A stretch of 28,535 nucleotides of DNA from a virus, in IMG/VR virus record IMGVR_UViG_3300043446_000750, positions 1 to 28,535 of that record. The stretch is one strand, 5' to 3'. Positions 18,024 through 25,546 of this stretch are shown here, piece by piece (position 1 is the stretch's first letter; each line of letters opens with the position of its first letter). The notes below the pieces were generated by a model, which made no database searches, was not told the origin of the DNA, and worked only from the letters and a program-made list of their open reading frames with translations. Position numbers and translations under genes: made by a program.

Positions 18024-19163
18024 ATGTTCTCATTTACTCAGTTTCTGACTGAAGCGACTAAGCTGACAGGTGGAATCCAGCACCTCGAACATCCTGCTGA
18101 TAGAACTTTTGATAGTCCAGAAGCAGCGCAGCACGCCATCAGCACTCTCAGAGGCGTTGTTTCAGGCTCTACGCCAATCACTCGTAAGATTGATGACAAG
18201 ATGTCCTTCCAGGCTATTCGCACTAAGGAAGGCAAAGTCGGCGTAAAGTATAAGGGATCAGGCTCTACTTACAATTTTTCTCGATCTGACGTAGAAAAAC
18301 AACACGGTCACAAGCCATATCTGGCTGGACCATTGAATACGCTACTCCAGCACGTTGGTAAAGTCCTACCAGCTAAACACGGAGAATACCAGGGCGGGTT
18401 TATGTCTACGCCTGAGACTCGTAGAGAAGAAGGTGGGCACATCAGCCACACGCCTAATACTGTAGAGTACCATACTCCAGTCAATTCAGCTGAAGGGCAG
18501 AAGCTGAAAAAGTCTAAGGTCAGTCTTGCTATTCATACAAAGCTAGAAGGTCCTGAAAGAACAGCGCATCCTATCACAAGCATGGCAGGATTTAGTTCTC
18601 ATCCTGATGTCCACCAGGTCCAGCACGTTGTTTCTGGTAAAGAGCGCGAGATTCACCCAGACGATAAAAAAGAGATCAATAAACACATCTCTGCTGCTAC
18701 AAGTCTGATGAGAGACCACACTCATGAGCATCTATCTGGTCATGAACAGCACCTTCGCACTTACATCAACTCTACAGTTCGAAGCGGTGAGACTCCAAGC
18801 ACAGCTGGATATAGGGCGCATCTAGAAGCAGCGCACAACAAGAAGATTGAAGCCGTGAAAATGGATGCAACGAAAGCAGCAAAGACTGCTGAAAAGAATG
18901 CTATGCTAGCCCATGTTGATAAGAACAAGAAAGCGTTTGACAGGACTTTTCAGATCCATCACCATGTCCAGCAGGCTACTAATAGACTAGCAGATGCACT
19001 AGATCGTTCTAGCGCAAGCGGTGGTGGATTTCAGACTCGCATCGGCGGTCAGGCCTCTGGCGGTGAAGGTTATGTCGGTGGCGGTCTAAAGATTGTCAAT
19101 CGTCAAGAATTTTCAAAAGCCAATTTAGCTAAGAATGTTGGAATGAGAGCCAAGAATGAGTAA
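18024..19163 (+). CDS. Nucleotidyltransferase/ligase-fold phage protein with capsid-targeting-like leader
   Basis: 379 residues. The first ten, MFSFTQFLTE followed by Ala, resemble the capsid-targeting leader of T4 internal proteins. The body shows ligase-superfamily landmarks in order: 'ITRKIDDKMSFQAI' (K55 in a KxDG-like motif with Gly changed to Asp58), 'VGVKYKG' (72-78), 'YQGGFMST', and late 'GGEGYVGGGLKIVNR' (E348, K356), like motifs IV and V. I believe this matches the DUF6267 family of T4-like phages. Whether it still transfers nucleotides is unknown. The region 170-310 is His- and Lys-rich. It overlaps the next gene by 8 bases. Confidence 0.65.
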   Translation: MFSFTQFLTEATKLTGGIQHLEHPADRTFDSPEAAQHAISTLRGVVSGSTPITRKIDDKMSFQAIRTKEGKVGVKYKGSGSTYNFSRSDVEKQHGHKPYLAGPLNTLLQHVGKVLPAKHGEYQGGFMSTPETRREEGGHISHTPNTVEYHTPVNSAEGQKLKKSKVSLAIHTKLEGPERTAHPITSMAGFSSHPDVHQVQHVVSGKEREIHPDDKKEINKHISAATSLMRDHTHEHLSGHEQHLRTYINSTVRSGETPSTAGYRAHLEAAHNKKIEAVKMDATKAAKTAEKNAMLAHVDKNKKAFDRTFQIHHHVQQATNRLADALDRSSASGGGFQTRIGGQASGGEGYVGGGLKIVNRQEFSKANLAKNVGMRAKNE

Positions 19164-21702
19164 CGCAACATTTACATTTGGCCGTTTCAATCCACCAACA
19201 GAAGCTGGACATGGCAAGCTAGTTGCTGCTGTTCAGCAACACGCGAAAGAAACTGGTGGTCAGCACTACGTCTTTCCGACGCGCTCACAGGATAAGAAAA
19301 AGAATCCTATGTCGCATGAAGATAAAGTCAGTGCGATGAGAAGACTGTTTCCTAAGGCGAATGTTGTCTCGCATGAAGGCGTGAAAACTGTTGTAGATGC
19401 AATGAAGCACCTTGAGAAACAAGGCCATACTCATGTGACAATGGTAGTTGGATCTGATCGTGTCGAAGGTTTTCATAAGTTGCTCAACGACTATCGTGCA
19501 AAAGAATATCCTAAGATCAAGAAAGTGAGCGTTGTTTCAGCTGGTCAGCGTGATCCAGATGCTGAAGGCGCAGAGGGAATGTCAGCATCTAAACTACGTG
19601 GATTAGTTGCTTCAGGTAATAAAAAAGAATTCGTTTCTCACTACAGCAACCCAAAGTTGGGCGCTGAAATTCATGATAAAGTAAAAGCAGGTATGCAGAT
19701 GAAAGAATCAGTAGATAAGCCAATCGGAATCTTTTTGCTTGGTGGTCCAGGCAGCGGCAAAGACTATGTTCTAAACAACATCTTCTCGCGCTTTGATCTG
19801 ACTGAAGTTCAAGCGGATCAGATTCTGCACAACGCTTCTAGCATCGTAGAAAGCAATCAGAACATCGTGATCAACGGTGCGATGGATTCTGATAAGATCG
19901 AAATGATCAAGACGATTCTAGAGAACTACGAATTCGACTATGTGCATGTCTCAGTAACAAACAAGGTCAGTCGCACTCGCAACTCTATGAGAGATAATCC
20001 TCTTGTAGAAAGCAAGCGCATTGAAAAGTTTCTCAAGGCTGAAAAGCTAGCCGAGAACTATGACTGCTTTCATTTCAACAACTCAATCAATCTGATTGAA
20101 TCAAATCAGATGGAGCAAATTATGTTTGCTGGTCAGATTGAGCATCTTCTAGAAAGACTTGTTGCGCTAGGTCTGCCTATTGTAGAAAAAGTTGCTCGTG
20201 ATAAAGAAAGCGGTCTGCCAAAAAAGTATGTTGCAGGACTGTCTAAAGCTACTGCAAAGGCTCGTGCTGCACATTGGTCAAAGACATCCAAGATGTCAGA
20301 TCGTGATCCGAAGGCATATGAGCCTGCTCCTGGTGATGCGACTGCAAAGACAAAAGAAAGCAAATACACAAAGAAATACCACGCTATGTATGGTGAAGCA
20401 GCTAATCCAGCACAACAAGCTGCGATTGCTATTGCCATGAAGAAAGCTGGTAAGAAGCCAAAGAACGAAGAAGTCGAGCAGGTTGATGAGATGGATTCAG
20501 AAGGGTATAGAGGTCATCGTGGCGATGAAGATCCAGGTAAAGGTCCAGCAAAATATGTGAAGCCAGAACCAGCTAAGAAAACTAATAAAGATGCTCTAAA
20601 ACTTCTCAATAAAAGTTTTGCTAAAAAGAAGACTAATGAAGAAGTTGAACTTGAAGAAGGTGCAGCAGACACTTCATTGGCTGGAAAAGCCAAGAAGTCT
20701 GGCATCTCCGTCGGCACTCTACGCAAGGTCTACAAGCGCGGTGTTGCTGCTTGGAACTCTGGTCACCGTCCGGGAACTACACCACAGCAATGGGGTCATG
20801 CTCGTGTGAACTCATATATCACACACGGCAAGACTTATCACACAGCTGATAAGGATCTTCACGAAGAACTTGATAATGAGTTTGAAGAGTTTATTGTAGA
20901 AAAGAAAGACGATTGCGGCTGTGATTCTGGATGCGATTGCAATTCAGCACCAGCAATGAAGTCGTTCACATCTTTTGTAGAAGATTCTGTTGACGTAACA
21001 CCTGATCTAAAGACGACAAAGAAAAAAGGAAAGCCTAATCCTCCGACAGATTATCGTTCAACACTAGCTGGCATGCCTGTCGTGACAGCAAAGATGAATG
21101 AGTCTGCTACGCTTGAAGAAGCTGTTCAGTATCATCTAGACAACAATATCTCTATCACAGAGAATGTGTTTCGTCCAGGTTCTGATATGTTCTTTCAGCT
21201 AATCGGCGAAGCAAAGCGCCTGTACGCTGAAGGCACATATACACCAAAAGATGAATGGGAAAAAGATCTTCTCGAATCAGATGTCGGCGAAATGGCAATG
21301 TACGAAGGCAAGCTAGTCGTTCTTGATTATCCAGTCGAAGAAGGTCTAGAAGAAGCCTGCTGGTCTGGATACACTCAGAAGGGGCTGAAGAAGAGAGGCA
21401 ACAAGATGGTGCCTAATTGCGTTCCTGTGAACGAAGACTCTGACCCAACTGACGGTCACGGAATCGGCAAGCCATGGCGCACTGGCGGTGGTGGTGCTGT
21501 TTACGTTCGCACTGGCAACGGTGGAGTCAAGAAGGTCAACTTCAGTCAATCAGGCATGACGAAGAAGTTCATGGATCCAGGCGCGACTCGCTCATTCATG
21601 GCTCGTCATCACTGTCTGACAAACAAAGACAAGACTAGCGCATCGTATTGGGCATGCCGTTATCCACGATTCTTCAGCAATTCAGGCAAGACTTGGTGGT
21701 AA
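19156..21702 (+). CDS. Mosaic polyprotein: nucleotidylyltransferase + P-loop kinase + phage modules
   Basis: 848 residues made of separate blocks. Residues 4-180 are a nucleotidylyltransferase ('TFTFGRFNPPTEAGHGKL', late 'GMSASKLRGL'). Residues 188-335 are a P-loop kinase-like domain ('GIFLLGGPGSGKDYVLNN', Walker A G196-K202). Residues 343-415 hold 'SGLPKKYVAGLSKATAKARA' to 'KKYHAMYGE' (like DUF5872). Residues 513-572 hold 'KSGISVGTLRKVYKRGVAAW', 'HRPGTTPQQWGHARVNSY' (like DUF5824). A CxC...CxC cluster is at 587-595. Residues 770-848 hold 'GKPWRTGGGG' and 'ATRSFMARHHC' ending 'KTWW', a C-terminal module shared among T4-like phages. Linkers NEEVEQVDE (437-445) and NEEVELEE (494-501) separate modules. 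Its neighbours suggest a virion or head-core protein. Confidence 0.75.
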   Translation: MSNATFTFGRFNPPTEAGHGKLVAAVQQHAKETGGQHYVFPTRSQDKKKNPMSHEDKVSAMRRLFPKANVVSHEGVKTVVDAMKHLEKQGHTHVTMVVGSDRVEGFHKLLNDYRAKEYPKIKKVSVVSAGQRDPDAEGAEGMSASKLRGLVASGNKKEFVSHYSNPKLGAEIHDKVKAGMQMKESVDKPIGIFLLGGPGSGKDYVLNNIFSRFDLTEVQADQILHNASSIVESNQNIVINGAMDSDKIEMIKTILENYEFDYVHVSVTNKVSRTRNSMRDNPLVESKRIEKFLKAEKLAENYDCFHFNNSINLIESNQMEQIMFAGQIEHLLERLVALGLPIVEKVARDKESGLPKKYVAGLSKATAKARAAHWSKTSKMSDRDPKAYEPAPGDATAKTKESKYTKKYHAMYGEAANPAQQAAIAIAMKKAGKKPKNEEVEQVDEMDSEGYRGHRGDEDPGKGPAKYVKPEPAKKTNKDALKLLNKSFAKKKTNEEVELEEGAADTSLAGKAKKSGISVGTLRKVYKRGVAAWNSGHRPGTTPQQWGHARVNSYITHGKTYHTADKDLHEELDNEFEEFIVEKKDDCGCDSGCDCNSAPAMKSFTSFVEDSVDVTPDLKTTKKKGKPNPPTDYRSTLAGMPVVTAKMNESATLEEAVQYHLDNNISITENVFRPGSDMFFQLIGEAKRLYAEGTYTPKDEWEKDLLESDVGEMAMYEGKLVVLDYPVEEGLEEACWSGYTQKGLKKRGNKMVPNCVPVNEDSDPTDGHGIGKPWRTGGGGAVYVRTGNGGVKKVNFSQSGMTKKFMDPGATRSFMARHHCLTNKDKTSASYWACRYPRFFSNSGKTWW
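20467..20490 (+). repeat. Linker repeat L1 (EEVEQVDE), perfect match to 23346-23369
   Basis: GAAGAAGTCGAGCAGGTTGATGAG, 24 bases, is identical to 23346-23369 in the next polyprotein gene, 2.9 kb away. It encodes the acidic linker that joins two modules. Confidence 0.9.
20638..20659 (+). repeat. Linker repeat L2 (EEVELEE)
   Basis: A variant of the same linker (GAAGAAGTTGAACTTGAAGAAG) marking the junction before the DUF5824-like module. Confidence 0.7.
20956..20985 (+). other. Internal capsid-targeting-like peptide (MKSFTSFVED)
   Basis: Residues 601-610 of the 848-residue polyprotein repeat the leader pattern M-x-x-F-x-x-F-(V/L)-x-(E/D) that starts several neighbouring proteins. It looks like a fused former N-terminus; no good ribosome site precedes it. 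Confidence 0.45.
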
Positions 21703-21707
21703 CAGAT

Positions 21708-22013
21708 ATGGACGATTTTCCTTTTGAATTGAACACTGAGGAAAAGAAGCCATATACTGACAAGAAACTAAATAATGGTGCGTTCATAAGAACATTTGAT
21801 TGCAATGTTTTGAGCGAAGAACTTGTTTGGCATCGTGATAAAAGCAATAGAGTGATTGAGATTCTGGAAGGCGAAGGTTGGGAAATTCAATTTGACAACG
21901 GTCTTCCAGAGAAACTCATAGTCGGCAAGACATATATTATTCCAGGGTATACATACCATAGAATAAAGCGCGGAACAACGAATCTAAAGATTAGAGTAGA
22001 AGAAACACTATGA
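21708..22013 (+). CDS. Cupin-like conserved phage protein, 101 aa
   Basis: The start is the ATG at 21708, 5 bases after the previous stop; an ATG at 21648 lies inside that gene. The sequence has a small beta-barrel pattern: 'ELVWHRDKSNRVIEILEGEG', 'IQFDNGLPEKLIVGKTYIIP' and 'YTYHRIKRGTTNLKIRV'. This is a single-domain cupin layout with a conserved WHRD...E and a later YHRI. I recall very similar proteins in T4-like phages of cyanobacteria. H42 and H85 could bind a metal; function is unknown. It overlaps the Dps gene by 4 bases. Confidence 0.7.
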   Translation: MDDFPFELNTEEKKPYTDKKLNNGAFIRTFDCNVLSEELVWHRDKSNRVIEILEGEGWEIQFDNGLPEKLIVGKTYIIPGYTYHRIKRGTTNLKIRVEETL

Positions 22014-22504
22014 CTGACATTCAAAATTACGTTCAAGAGGCTACTGAAGCAGCAACTGCTGATGCGCCAGATAATCTGATTTCGCAATTGAAGCTAGTAA
22101 TGGCTGATAACTTTGTTTTCTACTTCAAAGCGCATTCGTTTCATTGGAACGTCGTAGGATCAAACTTTCCGCAGTATCATGAGTTTCTAGAAGGCATCTA
22201 TACGAATGCATTTACAGCAATCGATAGAATCGCAGAAGAGATTCGCGCTCTTGGTGAGTATGCACCAATGTCGTTGAACAGCATGTTGAGCATCAGTTCT
22301 ATCAGCGAAAATAATTCAGTTCTCAGTGCTGAACAAATGCTTCGCGAACTAAGCAACGACAATCAGAAGATTTTAGGTCTGCTTCTAGCCACTCAAAGAA
22401 TGGCAGATGCAGCAAATCAAGTTGGTCTAGCAAATTATCTACAAGACCTATTCGATCAACACAAGAAACTAGCCTGGATGCTAGCAGCTACTCTAAAGGT
22501 ATAA
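22010..22504 (+). CDS. dps: Dps-family ferritin (DNA-protecting ferroxidase)
   Basis: 164 residues, normal for Dps, which oxidises and stores iron in a 12-subunit shell and protects DNA. All five ferroxidase ligands are present with exactly the E. coli Dps spacing: H45, H57, E61, D72, E76 ('FHWNVVG', 'YHEFLEGIYTNAFTAIDRIA'). The end 'YLQDLFDQHKKLAWMLAATL' is also classic. The N-terminus MTDIQNYVQE followed by Ala is ten residues ending in Glu, like the capsid-targeting leaders in neighbouring genes. It is coupled to the cupin gene and followed 4 bases later by a mosaic polyprotein. Phage-coded Dps is known but uncommon; here it sits among probable head proteins rather than metabolic ones. Confidence 0.9.
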   Translation: MTDIQNYVQEATEAATADAPDNLISQLKLVMADNFVFYFKAHSFHWNVVGSNFPQYHEFLEGIYTNAFTAIDRIAEEIRALGEYAPMSLNSMLSISSISENNSVLSAEQMLRELSNDNQKILGLLLATQRMADAANQVGLANYLQDLFDQHKKLAWMLAATLKV

Positions 22505-22508
22505 GAAC

Positions 22509-24218
22509 ATGGCAGAAGTTCCAAAATTACTCCATAAAATGTCTGTGACTTCACAGAAAGCCTGGTACAAGAAGAATAATATGCCGCTGCCTCCTCACCT
22601 GACAGGTGATGGAACAATGTCAGCTACACAGGCAAAGAAGGCTCAGGCACCTAGCGCCCGTGTTCAGACTATGCAGGCTGCAAGTGCCAAGGCTTATGGC
22701 GCAACTAGAGGAACTGCGATGGGTTCTGAAGATGGCAAGGGTGTTGCATTGCGCGACACTGTGAAGCCATTGTCGCCAGAACAGCACAGCAAGGTTTCTG
22801 CTGCTAAGAGAGTTGTAGAAAAGCCAAAGCCTGTTGCCGCAAAGCCAGCTGCTCCAGCAGCACCAAAGAAGCCACTTTCTGCTTCTGAGAGAATTGCTGC
22901 GATTGCAAGAGCATCTAGAAAGATCAAGTCTGGTGAGAAGTATGCAGTCCCAACTATTGATCCAAACGAAGGCGATCACGAAGACCTAAGAGATTTGCAT
23001 CACAGCCTGCATATCGGCAGTGATCAGTACAATGAAGAAGTCGCTAAGAAAGTTGTCGTGAAGACGAATGCTCCTATCGGCTATAAAATAGTAGACATAG
23101 GCCCTGGCGGCAAAGAACATAATGTCAAAACCAATAAGGCTTGGGATGACAAAAAGGGTAAAAAAGAAGTAACAGAGGAATCTGCCACAATGAAGCAATA
23201 TATCGAAGAAAAACTAACAAAGTCTGACCCTGCTTCAAAGTGGATCAGCGACTTTGTTCACTCAGACAATCCAAAGTTTGCTGGCAAGAGCAAGGCTGAG
23301 CGCATCAAGATGGCTCTAGGTGCCAAGTATGCTGCACAGCGTAATGAAGAAGTCGAGCAGGTTGATGAGGCTAAAGGTTATTATGTTATGCATAGTAAAG
23401 GGCAATCATTAGGTTATTATAAAAATAAACAAGAAGCCGAAAAACATGCTGAGAGACATAATATGCGTGGCGGTTCTATCGCTAAAGTTGTGGCTGACAC
23501 TAAAGAAGAAGTCGAGCAAGTTGAAGAAGCAACTGGCAAGGGCGATCATCGTCCAGGTTGGATGCTTCGTGCTGATCCAAAGCTAGCTGCTAAGTTCAAA
23601 GAAAAAGAAGATCAACACAAGAAAATGAATTCTCTCATGAAGAAGTATGGTGGCAAGACAGGCGATGAAATCAAGGCTATGAAGAAAGAAGAAGTCGAAC
23701 TAAACGAAAAAGATGATCGTGAGTACGGCTACGAAGGTGATATGGCAATGTCGCAGCTAAAGAGCATCATTGCTAATTCACAAAGACTTCATGAAATGCT
23801 AAAGCCAAATACTGATCTACCTGAATGGGTACAGTCAAAGATCACTCTTGCTGAAGACTATATCACGACAGCAGCAAACTACTGCGCAAGTGATCTTGAG
23901 GAAGAAGTTCAGATTGACGAAGCCTCATATTCTGCTAAGGCTGCTAGAGCAGGCAAAGACATCGGCAAGCCTGGCAAGAACTTTGCCAAGATTGCTGCTT
24001 CAGCTGGCAAGCGCTACGGCTCTAAAGAAGCAGGCAAGCGTGTCGCTGGTGCTATTCTAGCCAAGCTGCGCAAAGAAGCCCTAGATCCAGTCGGCAAAGA
24101 AGATGCTGATGTGAACAACGACGGCAAGGCCGACAAGACAGATGTTTATCTAGCAAAGCGTCGCAAGGCTGTTGGAAACGCAATCAGCAAAACAGCTTCT
24201 GGAAAAATGGATAAGTAA
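22509..24218 (+). CDS. Mosaic polyprotein of short modules with acidic linkers and EF-hand-like loop
   Basis: 569 residues, Lys-, Ala- and Glu-rich. The N-terminal 150 residues are low-complexity (VAAKPAAPAAPKKPLSASER). Modules then follow: 'WISDFVHSDNPKFAGKSKAE' (245-264), 'GYYVMHSKGQSLGYYKNKQE' (290-309), 'HRPGWMLRADPKLAAKF' (347-363), 'YEGDMAMSQLKSIIANSQRL' (408-427), and 'AARAGKDIGKPGKNFAKIAA' (478-497). The C-terminus holds a perfect EF-hand loop D534-x-N-x-D-G-x-x-D-x-x-D545. Modules are separated by EEVEQVDEA, EEVEQVEEA, EEVELNE and EEVQIDEA. Several modules occur in T4-like phage head-core or virion proteins to my memory. I infer a scaffold or internal head polyprotein cut by the prohead protease. 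Confidence 0.7.
   Translation: MAEVPKLLHKMSVTSQKAWYKKNNMPLPPHLTGDGTMSATQAKKAQAPSARVQTMQAASAKAYGATRGTAMGSEDGKGVALRDTVKPLSPEQHSKVSAAKRVVEKPKPVAAKPAAPAAPKKPLSASERIAAIARASRKIKSGEKYAVPTIDPNEGDHEDLRDLHHSLHIGSDQYNEEVAKKVVVKTNAPIGYKIVDIGPGGKEHNVKTNKAWDDKKGKKEVTEESATMKQYIEEKLTKSDPASKWISDFVHSDNPKFAGKSKAERIKMALGAKYAAQRNEEVEQVDEAKGYYVMHSKGQSLGYYKNKQEAEKHAERHNMRGGSIAKVVADTKEEVEQVEEATGKGDHRPGWMLRADPKLAAKFKEKEDQHKKMNSLMKKYGGKTGDEIKAMKKEEVELNEKDDREYGYEGDMAMSQLKSIIANSQRLHEMLKPNTDLPEWVQSKITLAEDYITTAANYCASDLEEEVQIDEASYSAKAARAGKDIGKPGKNFAKIAASAGKRYGSKEAGKRVAGAILAKLRKEALDPVGKEDADVNNDGKADKTDVYLAKRRKAVGNAISKTASGKMDK
23346..23369 (+). repeat. Linker repeat L3 (EEVEQVDE), perfect match to 20467-20490
   Basis: The identical 24-base partner of L1. 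It forms the left edge of a low-GC cassette. Confidence 0.9.
23370..23504 (+). other. Low-GC module cassette between linkers
   Basis: Encodes 'AKGYYVMHSKGQSLGYYKNK' to 'GGSIAKVVADTK'. Bases 23371-23450 are about 29 percent GC by hand count, against about 57 percent at 23281-23340, and codons favour T/A endings. It is bounded on both sides by linker repeats. Confidence 0.65.
23505..23528 (+). repeat. Linker repeat L4 (EEVEQVEE)
   Basis: 21 of 24 bases match L3. It forms the right edge of the low-GC cassette. Confidence 0.85.
23688..23708 (+). repeat. Linker repeat L5 (EEVELNE)
   Basis: The first 13 bases (GAAGAAGTCGAAC) match the other linkers closely; it separates two modules of the 569-residue protein. 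Confidence 0.65.
23901..23921 (+). repeat. Linker repeat L6 (EEVQIDE)
   Basis: A variant linker encoding EEVQIDE followed by Ala, the closest of all to a T4 prohead protease site (I-x-E before Ala). Confidence 0.65.
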
Positions 24219-24219
24219 G

Positions 24220-24540
24220 ATGTCTACCGTAAAAGAAGACACATATAATAAAGTCGGTCATCCAGTTGGGATCGATGTAGATCCTGAAAAGAGTGGACCG
24301 CCTAAGAGTGCTTATACTGCAAAGAAGAAGCCAGCGCAATACAAGCCTTCTGTAAAGGAGGCTGCTGACCCAGGCAAGAATAAAGTTGTAAATAAGAAAG
24401 TAACTACGACGCCTAAAGAAGAAAAGAAAAAGTCAAAGCAAGCAAACATGGCGCAGAAAGTTCTTGATATTGTCAAGGGCAAAAAGCATAAGATTGACGT
24501 AGAACCAACAGTGAGTCCAGAACATGTTAAAGTTCAATGA
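24220..24540 (+). CDS. Lysine-rich disordered phage protein, 106 aa
   Basis: The start is the ATG at 24220, one base after the previous stop; an ATG at 24172 lies inside the polyprotein. The sequence is low-complexity and basic (SAYTAKKKPAQYKPSVKEAA, NKKVTTTPKEEKKKSKQ), with a late helix 'MAQKVLDIVKGKKHKI'. It looks unstructured and nucleic-acid- or head-core-associated. It overlaps the next gene by 17 bases. Function is unknown. Confidence 0.6.
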   Translation: MSTVKEDTYNKVGHPVGIDVDPEKSGPPKSAYTAKKKPAQYKPSVKEAADPGKNKVVNKKVTTTPKEEKKKSKQANMAQKVLDIVKGKKHKIDVEPTVSPEHVKVQ

Positions 24541-24982
24541 ATATCTAGAAGAACAGCACGATGAGATGATGGAAGTAGATTCTAAGCATCTGCAAGAGAA
24601 TCTCGACAAGATCAACGCTCATCTAGATCTGATCACAGAAAAGCCATATCAAAATGCGCCTATCTTTTTAGCGCAGTTGCGTGGTGTTTTTGAACTCTAT
24701 GGAATCGTTCTGCCAGCTTCTGCTACGGTGAACTTCCTGAATCTAGATGCTGAGTTGGTGTATCTGCTTTCTAATTCAGATCATTATCTGTACATCATTT
24801 ACAATACACGAGATGATGGATATGTAGACGGATATGCGCAGATTGTTGATGACGCAGAGTTGCAGGATCTGATCGCAATGGATCCAGCTGATCTGCTTCA
24901 GAGTCAGCCTCTGCCGCAGAAGCCATTTGTTCCACCAGCCCGTAAAGACGACGACAGCGGAAACACATCTGAATACGCATAA
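24524..24982 (+). CDS. Conserved phage protein with capsid-targeting-like leader, 152 aa
   Basis: It begins MLKFNEYLEE, ten residues fitting the leader pattern of the neighbouring genes. The body has 'LDKINAHLDLITEKPYQNAP' and 'LSNSDHYLYIIYNTRDDGYV', then a Pro-rich acidic tail (QPLPQKPFVPPARKDDDSG). I recall similar proteins in T4-like phages without known function. It is followed 2 bases later by another conserved gene. An internal head protein or core component is plausible from the leader and position. Confidence 0.65.
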   Translation: MLKFNEYLEEQHDEMMEVDSKHLQENLDKINAHLDLITEKPYQNAPIFLAQLRGVFELYGIVLPASATVNFLNLDAELVYLLSNSDHYLYIIYNTRDDGYVDGYAQIVDDAELQDLIAMDPADLLQSQPLPQKPFVPPARKDDDSGNTSEYA

Positions 24983-25372: not shown

Positions 25373-25546
25373 ATGAAAACATTCAAGCAAATCCGCGAAG
25401 ATGCTGCTCCAGTAAATGTTGCTGGAGTTCCTGGTCCTGTGACTTCAATGCAGGGTTCTCCTACAATGGCTGGTATAGATAAGATTCTAATGGGTGGTAC
25501 TAAAGCGCTGCGTCGCAAGCCACTGGCGAAATTTCGTAAAAAGTAG
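25373..25546 (+). CDS. Basic small protein with capsid-targeting-like leader, 57 aa
   Basis: The ATG at 25373 lies behind GAAAGGTG and opens a 57-residue frame. It starts MKTFKQIRED followed by Ala, then has a Gly/Pro/Val segment (NVAGVPGPVTSMQG) and a strongly basic tail (ALRRKPLAKFRKK). The leader pattern is closest of all to the T4 internal-protein leader as I recall it. A basic DNA-bound internal head peptide is a fair guess. It precedes the lysis genes and ends 10 bases before the holin-like start. Confidence 0.6.
   Translation: MKTFKQIREDAAPVNVAGVPGPVTSMQGSPTMAGIDKILMGGTKALRRKPLAKFRKK

Follow-up and report, generated by a model that had tools for sequence, protein, structure and literature searches.

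Why would a phage join unrelated protein modules with copies of one short acidic linker, and what becomes of the resulting chains? Two genes in IMG/VR virus record IMGVR_UViG_3300043446_000750 raise this question. We analyzed the whole 28,535-base record, which we call the window. A first-pass annotation of its sequence had proposed that the linkers serve both as recombination joints and as sites for a protease like T4 gp21. The window has genes for a B-family polymerase, a UvsX-like recombinase, and a DnaB-like helicase. From approximately position 18024 these give way to genes of mostly unknown function, and an endolysin-like gene and a gene for a virion structural protein follow. A near-identity DNA search against named phages returned no match for the window. 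As a 28.5-kb fragment it contains neither gp21 nor gp23, both of which were seen only in related long contigs. The genes that concern us are listed here, with a slash marking the predicted processing site and CTS denoting a capsid-targeting leader.

18024 to 19163, plus strand: DUF6267 protein (PF19782, E = 2e-42) with a CTS-like start matching the CTS pattern, MFSFTQFLTE/ATK (residues 1 to 10 at 18024 to 18053).
19156 to 21702, plus strand: polyprotein 1, with an NMNAT-like cytidylyltransferase, a P-loop kinase-like domain, a DUF5824 module, and further modules (phrog_3041/395, PF01467, PF19141).
22010 to 22504, plus strand: Dps/ferritin-like protein (PF00210, E = 9e-21) with a CTS-like start matching the CTS pattern, MTDIQNYVQE/ATE.
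22509 to 24218, plus strand: polyprotein 2, with a conserved N-terminal block and several modules.
24524 to 24982, plus strand: unknown protein with a CTS-like start matching the CTS pattern, MLKFNEYLEE/Q.
25373 to 25546, plus strand: small gene with a CTS-like start, MKTFKQIRE/DAAP, in which E is residue 9, so that it falls outside the strict pattern.

Both genes named in the first-pass annotation (19156 to 21702 and 22509 to 24218) are long ORFs. Polyprotein 1 begins with the NMNAT-like cytidylyltransferase (phrog_3041, phrog_395, and PF01467). This is followed by the P-loop kinase-like stretch, which is weakly matched in NCBIfam as well, and the DUF5824 module comes after the second linker. 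The first 8 bases of this gene (19156 to 19163) are also the last 8 of the CTS-bearing DUF6267 gene, and the two are probably fused in some phages because phrog_455 spans parts of both. In L154 (4900 to 5677), the P-loop kinase-like domain stands alone as a gene that has its own leader, MKSFYSFLEE/GVNDPAIFKAVFMAGGPGSG.

Polyprotein 2 matched only families of unknown function and, in its last module, a weak dockerin-like calcium-binding stretch (24069 to 24165; PF00404, E = 0.0015). That module is shared with ORF92 of phage S-SCSM1. The N-terminal block of polyprotein 2 (MAEVPKLLHKMSVTSQKAWYKKNNM, 22509 to 22590) is not CTS-like and has relatives in many linker proteins; a related block (MPVKVPPLLHKMSLSAQKAWYKKNNM) opens a family of 17 others. 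The polyprotein 2 block may represent another type of targeting signal. Searches of PDB sequences with both polyproteins returned no matches.

All six linker copies reported at first were found, and all end in [LIV]xE. Four weaker joints that had been overlooked keep the same core. The linkers and joints are as follows.

20467 to 20490, plus strand: linker 1, EEVEQVDE/M, with the same DNA as the linker at 23346.
20638 to 20658, plus strand: linker 2, EEVELEE/G, preceding the DUF5824 module.
21100 to 21120, plus strand: degenerate joint, ESATLEE/AVQYH, whose counterpart in relative L119 is EEVSLEE/AVQYH.
21337 to 21354, plus strand: joint EEGLEE/ACW, at the start of a small module.
21415 to 21435, plus strand: joint NCVPVNE/DSD, at the end of the small module begun at 21337 (PNCVPVNE is among the boundary sequences).
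23193 to 23210, plus strand: joint KQYIEE/KLT.
23346 to 23369, plus strand: linker 3, EEVEQVDE/A.
23505 to 23528, plus strand: linker 4, EEVEQVEE/A.
23688 to 23708, plus strand: linker 5, EEVELNE/K.
23901 to 23921, plus strand: linker 6, EEVQIDE/A.

The module that begins KLT is a gene of its own in relatives, behind MKxFNxxRE leaders. Allowing up to 3 mismatches, we counted three occurrences of a 17-base linker core, whereas shuffled sequence would be expected to give 0.07. In 815,035 residues from the ORFs of related contigs, the linker pattern matched 327 times, compared with 13 times in shuffled and 91 times in reversed proteins. When cellular genomes were scanned, the linker turned up in a single metagenome-assembled contig.

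The first-pass annotation held that phages swap modules at the linkers, a proposal with which a fixed module order in relatives would be at odds. We cut 137 non-redundant linker proteins into 498 segments. The largest module family (55 members, although single-linkage clustering may have merged some segments) had 19 left and 17 right neighbors. The second largest, with 25 members, had 17 different left and 12 different right neighbors. Of the ends of DNA matches between linker genes, 18.2% coincided with linkers in both genes, compared with 0.8% for random positions; we give no P value because the matches are not independent. Sixty-nine matches both start and stop at linkers in both genes, such as that between L130 and L246 (95% identity over 238 bases). 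Therefore, module order is not fixed. Modules have been swapped between and within phages, and the junctions lie at linkers.

A recombination hot spot had been suggested from the identity of linkers at the DNA level. The linkers at 20467 and 23346, in different genes, are indeed identical at 24 of 24 bases, which local codon usage would give in approximately 1% of pairs with the same amino acids. A codon test on contigs fetched by the exact 24-mer is biased, and it was redone on contigs fetched by module protein and with a synonymous scan. The scan accepted all spellings of EEVEQ[V/I/M]DE and covered at least 140 linkers in at least 114 contigs. The estimate for Val GTC dropped from 69% to 31% in the redone tests, and CAG and GAG were still high. 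Among the linkers listed, Gln was CAG in 71% (background, 32%), the third Glu was GAG in 48% (22%), and the first two Glu were GAA in 94 to 96% (78%). Linker codon identity among the matches listed was 0.76 within contigs and 0.64 between them, with 0.59 expected. In contigs fetched by module protein, linkers scored 0.70 between contigs, compared with 0.67 at homologous module positions and 0.58 at random ones. Linker DNA is more alike than protein sequence or codon usage requires, and the similarity is moderate.

This similarity peaks within single genomes, a pattern that duplication or gene conversion would explain as well as a recombination joint would. There is close to an even chance that linker DNA is alike through duplication and shared descent with the modules. 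Recombination could then occur anywhere, with in-frame joints at linkers being the ones selected, and no hot spot would be needed; such an origin is compatible with cutting. Within-genome duplication is expected to give what we see, with codon identity far higher within contigs (0.76 to 0.82) than between them (0.64 to 0.70), and the junction data cannot place the strand exchange. However, at synonymous sites, linkers beside different modules in different contigs agree no less (0.70) than homologous modules do (0.67), which suggests linker spread or constraint. The first-pass reading is supported in part. Module junctions do lie at linkers and their DNA is similar, but shared descent of linkers together with selection for in-frame joints at a protease site would give the same pattern, so that a hot spot that starts recombination is only one possible reading. 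What these sequences support is a pattern in which linkers act as recombination joints.

The linker ends had also been likened to gp21 sites. T4 gp21 cleaves after L/I-X-E (PMC9026906), and T4 Alt is cut at ITE and LTE (PMC5694885). To profile the boundaries, we set module starts by homology and took out those that follow the linker pattern. At the 639 internal boundaries without the pattern, P1 was Glu in 55% and P3 was L, I, or V in 47%. The figures were 51% and 53% at the 74 boundaries where a module opens a gene. As background, [LIVMF]xE lies within one residue of 3.7% of random sites. The fixed part of the joint is [L/I/V]-x-E, and the EEVEQ prefix is dispensable. The likeness to gp21 sites therefore holds, in that the core is conserved and matches the gp21 motif. 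This motif is present at the predicted processing sites of all six linkers, although window-type joints, unlike those of T4 internal head proteins, commonly have Val at P3 and are broader at P1'. P1' was Ala or Ser in the T4 sequences compared and is looser in the linkers, of which approximately one-third have A or G there and many others have L, I, V, or K. [LIV]-x-E is present inside modules too.

In the T4 CTS, residues 4 and 7 matter for targeting and residues 8 and 10 for processing (PMC9026906). IPII and IPIII both begin with MKTYQEFIAE/A. We searched with a strict CTS pattern that has the T4 spacing (^M..[FYWIL]..[FY][LIVF].E). Among 407 genes of named phages it found IPII, IPIII, and five others, against 0.15 expected from random internal windows. 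In IMG/VR loci, 142 of 2588 genes matched, many of them mutual homologues, with 3.3 expected. Three genes in the window matched (18024, 22010, and 24524), with 0.07 expected. From its CTS-like start, the Dps/ferritin-like protein encoded at 22010 to 22504 is predicted to be packed in the head of the window phage. The starts of 19156 and 22509 do not match the pattern, and we therefore do not file the polyproteins as T4-type internal head proteins, only as working like them.

The same modules also exist as genes of their own, headed by a short leader that has [L/I/V]-x-E at its end. One module follows a leader in MIGFKEFITE/RGEDSKGH and a linker in EEVEDITE/RGEDSKGH. A second follows leaders in MKTFKELSE/KINLKKAEMGDV and MKTYKQLQE/RINMAKAKMGDV and a linker in EEVEQVNE/KINLVTAKMGDV; the gene with the LQE form lies close upstream of gp21. 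Leader and linker joints are interchangeable at the exact residue. The linkers have the cut motif but not the aromatic targeting residues, which is what one would predict for a joint that serves for cutting and not for targeting. These sequence patterns strongly suggest that the linkers are cut by the prohead protease.

It is unlikely that the linkers are instead flexible acidic spacers in polyproteins that stay whole, with LxE kept for another role such as scaffold binding. The linkers are acidic and the intervening modules mostly basic, as would suit spacers. Disorder would also fit a predicted structure of two modules and their linker, which had low confidence overall (mean pLDDT, 57; the fold was not used) and its lowest confidence around the linker. 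However, a mere spacer would not retain L, I, or V at P3 and Glu at P1 while its prefix was lost, nor would it be interchangeable, to the exact residue, with the end of a CTS.

Relatives of the linker proteins are common in T4-like contigs. Of 20 long contigs reached via linkers or modules, a gp21-type protease is encoded in 11 and gp23 in 12. Two of these contigs have a module or linker gene a short way upstream of gp21, which is the position of gp67 and gp68 in T4. In the gp23 relatives compared, an L-x-E falls in or close to the region that aligns with T4 LTE/A, and the residue after it varies. Scaffold proteins of relatives have many L-x-E-type sites, one of them EEVLDE/K.

Virion detection refers to relatives, in whole virions of S-SCSM1 and S-CREM2. 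In S-SCSM1, the polymerase, uvsX, and primase are followed by ORFs 89 to 93, 95, and 97, labelled as virion proteins (PMC9602691), and this block has the same position as the window cluster. ORF91 is an NMNAT with the leader MKSFLQFLKE/A, and ORF89 and ORF92 carry the linkers KEEVENVDE/R and KEEVELDE/R. Strict leaders in the S-CREM2 virion proteome (PMC10665884) are found on the SAM hydrolase gp6, gp13, the kinase gp14, and the NMNAT-like gp154; gp160 carries the linker EETEISE/G. Proteins with a strict leader or a linker were detected in virions in five of eight cases in S-CREM2 (Fisher P = 0.014) and three of three in S-SCSM1 (P = 0.003), in a test that left out approximately 12 kb of S-CREM2 and 5 kb of S-SCSM1. 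Over both cyanophages, published mass spectrometry thus detected 8 of 11 CTS or linker proteins, which are few. Two of the three undetected are probably chance linker matches, and the other is a 55-residue protein. That relatives of these proteins are packaged in virions is well supported.

Both groups of authors mention that virion mass spectrometry may include contaminants or carry-over (PMC10665884, PMC9602691), and the window cluster adjoins replication genes. The proteins might then be structural or tail proteins, or early proteins that are never packaged. We consider this quite improbable, because CTS-type starts, which include those of T4 IPII and IPIII, predict virion detection in S-CREM2 (four of five) and because of the module gene close upstream of gp21 in two contigs. 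A self-cleaving polyvalent protein was ruled out, as no peptidase family was found in 19156 or 22509 with Pfam, PHROGs, or NCBIfam.

The two linker proteins are probably internal-head cargo polyproteins that are cut by a gp21-type prohead protease, with linkers that double as recombination joints. The cargo that this locus encodes would be packed into the head and probably injected along with the DNA. A T4-type CTS, ten residues ending in [L/I/V]-x-E, would bring the products of some cargo genes into the prohead core. The two linker proteins would each be a series of small cargo modules, most of them basic. As the head matures, the prohead protease, putatively of the gp21 type, would cut them into separate mature modules, and the same protease would remove the CTS from single-gene cargo. 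Recombination at linkers, perhaps with exchange inside the linker itself, would add, remove, or swap modules in frame. We propose this in-frame exchange because the joints share near-identical DNA and reading phase. More tentatively, and at somewhat less than even chance, marine T4-like phages may share an exchangeable cargo system of internal-head polyproteins whose joints are both protease cut sites and DNA-conserved recombination joints, so that new modules can be added in frame and the head protease releases them automatically.

Several known systems resemble this one. The leaders are like those of T4 IPI, IPII, IPIII, and Alt in being short, with aromatics at residues 4 and 7 and [LIV]xE ending at residue 10. 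T4 internal head proteins also share the L/I-X-E cut motif, basic and variable cargo, and relatives in the virion. However, T4 has one protein per gene, whereas the window modules stand in series via repeated linkers. In the T4 core proteins gp22, gp67, and gp68, gp21 cuts a single chain at several positions, but the T4 core is mostly degraded to peptides that leave the head, whereas the pieces here would be conserved modules. Polyvalent proteins (Iyer and others 2017, PMC5512222) and P1 DarA/DdrB likewise have several unrelated domains, some enzymatic, in one chain with predicted host entry. In the available parts of that account, polyvalent proteins use embedded peptidase domains, unlike the two window polyproteins, and no linker repeat is mentioned. 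NMNAT-like virion proteins of cyanophages S-SCSM1, S-CREM2, S-CBWM1, and S-SZBM1 belong to the same cytidylyltransferase family as the start of polyprotein 1. The accessible portions of those reports describe them as single proteins and propose no targeting or processing mechanism. A literature search, with most subscription journals outside its reach, found no earlier account of such cargo polyproteins.

T4-like phages abound in the sea, and many of the proteins in their heads lack an explanation. The rules for leaders and linkers amount to a simple, testable sequence predictor of which proteins are packed in the head and how they are released. They offer a possible reason why cyanophage virions contain enzymes such as an NMNAT-like protein, a SAM hydrolase, and a kinase. 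If one joint is both cut site and exchange point, this would explain quick variation of cargo in these phages. The puzzling S-CREM2 virion enzymes with T4-type leaders lie in the S-CREM2 loci L207 (3837 to 13331) and L206 (12609 to 13469). In the same phage, the Cas9-like gp12 has RFASFMAE/AAV near its annotated start, and gp15 has NPLFE/K.
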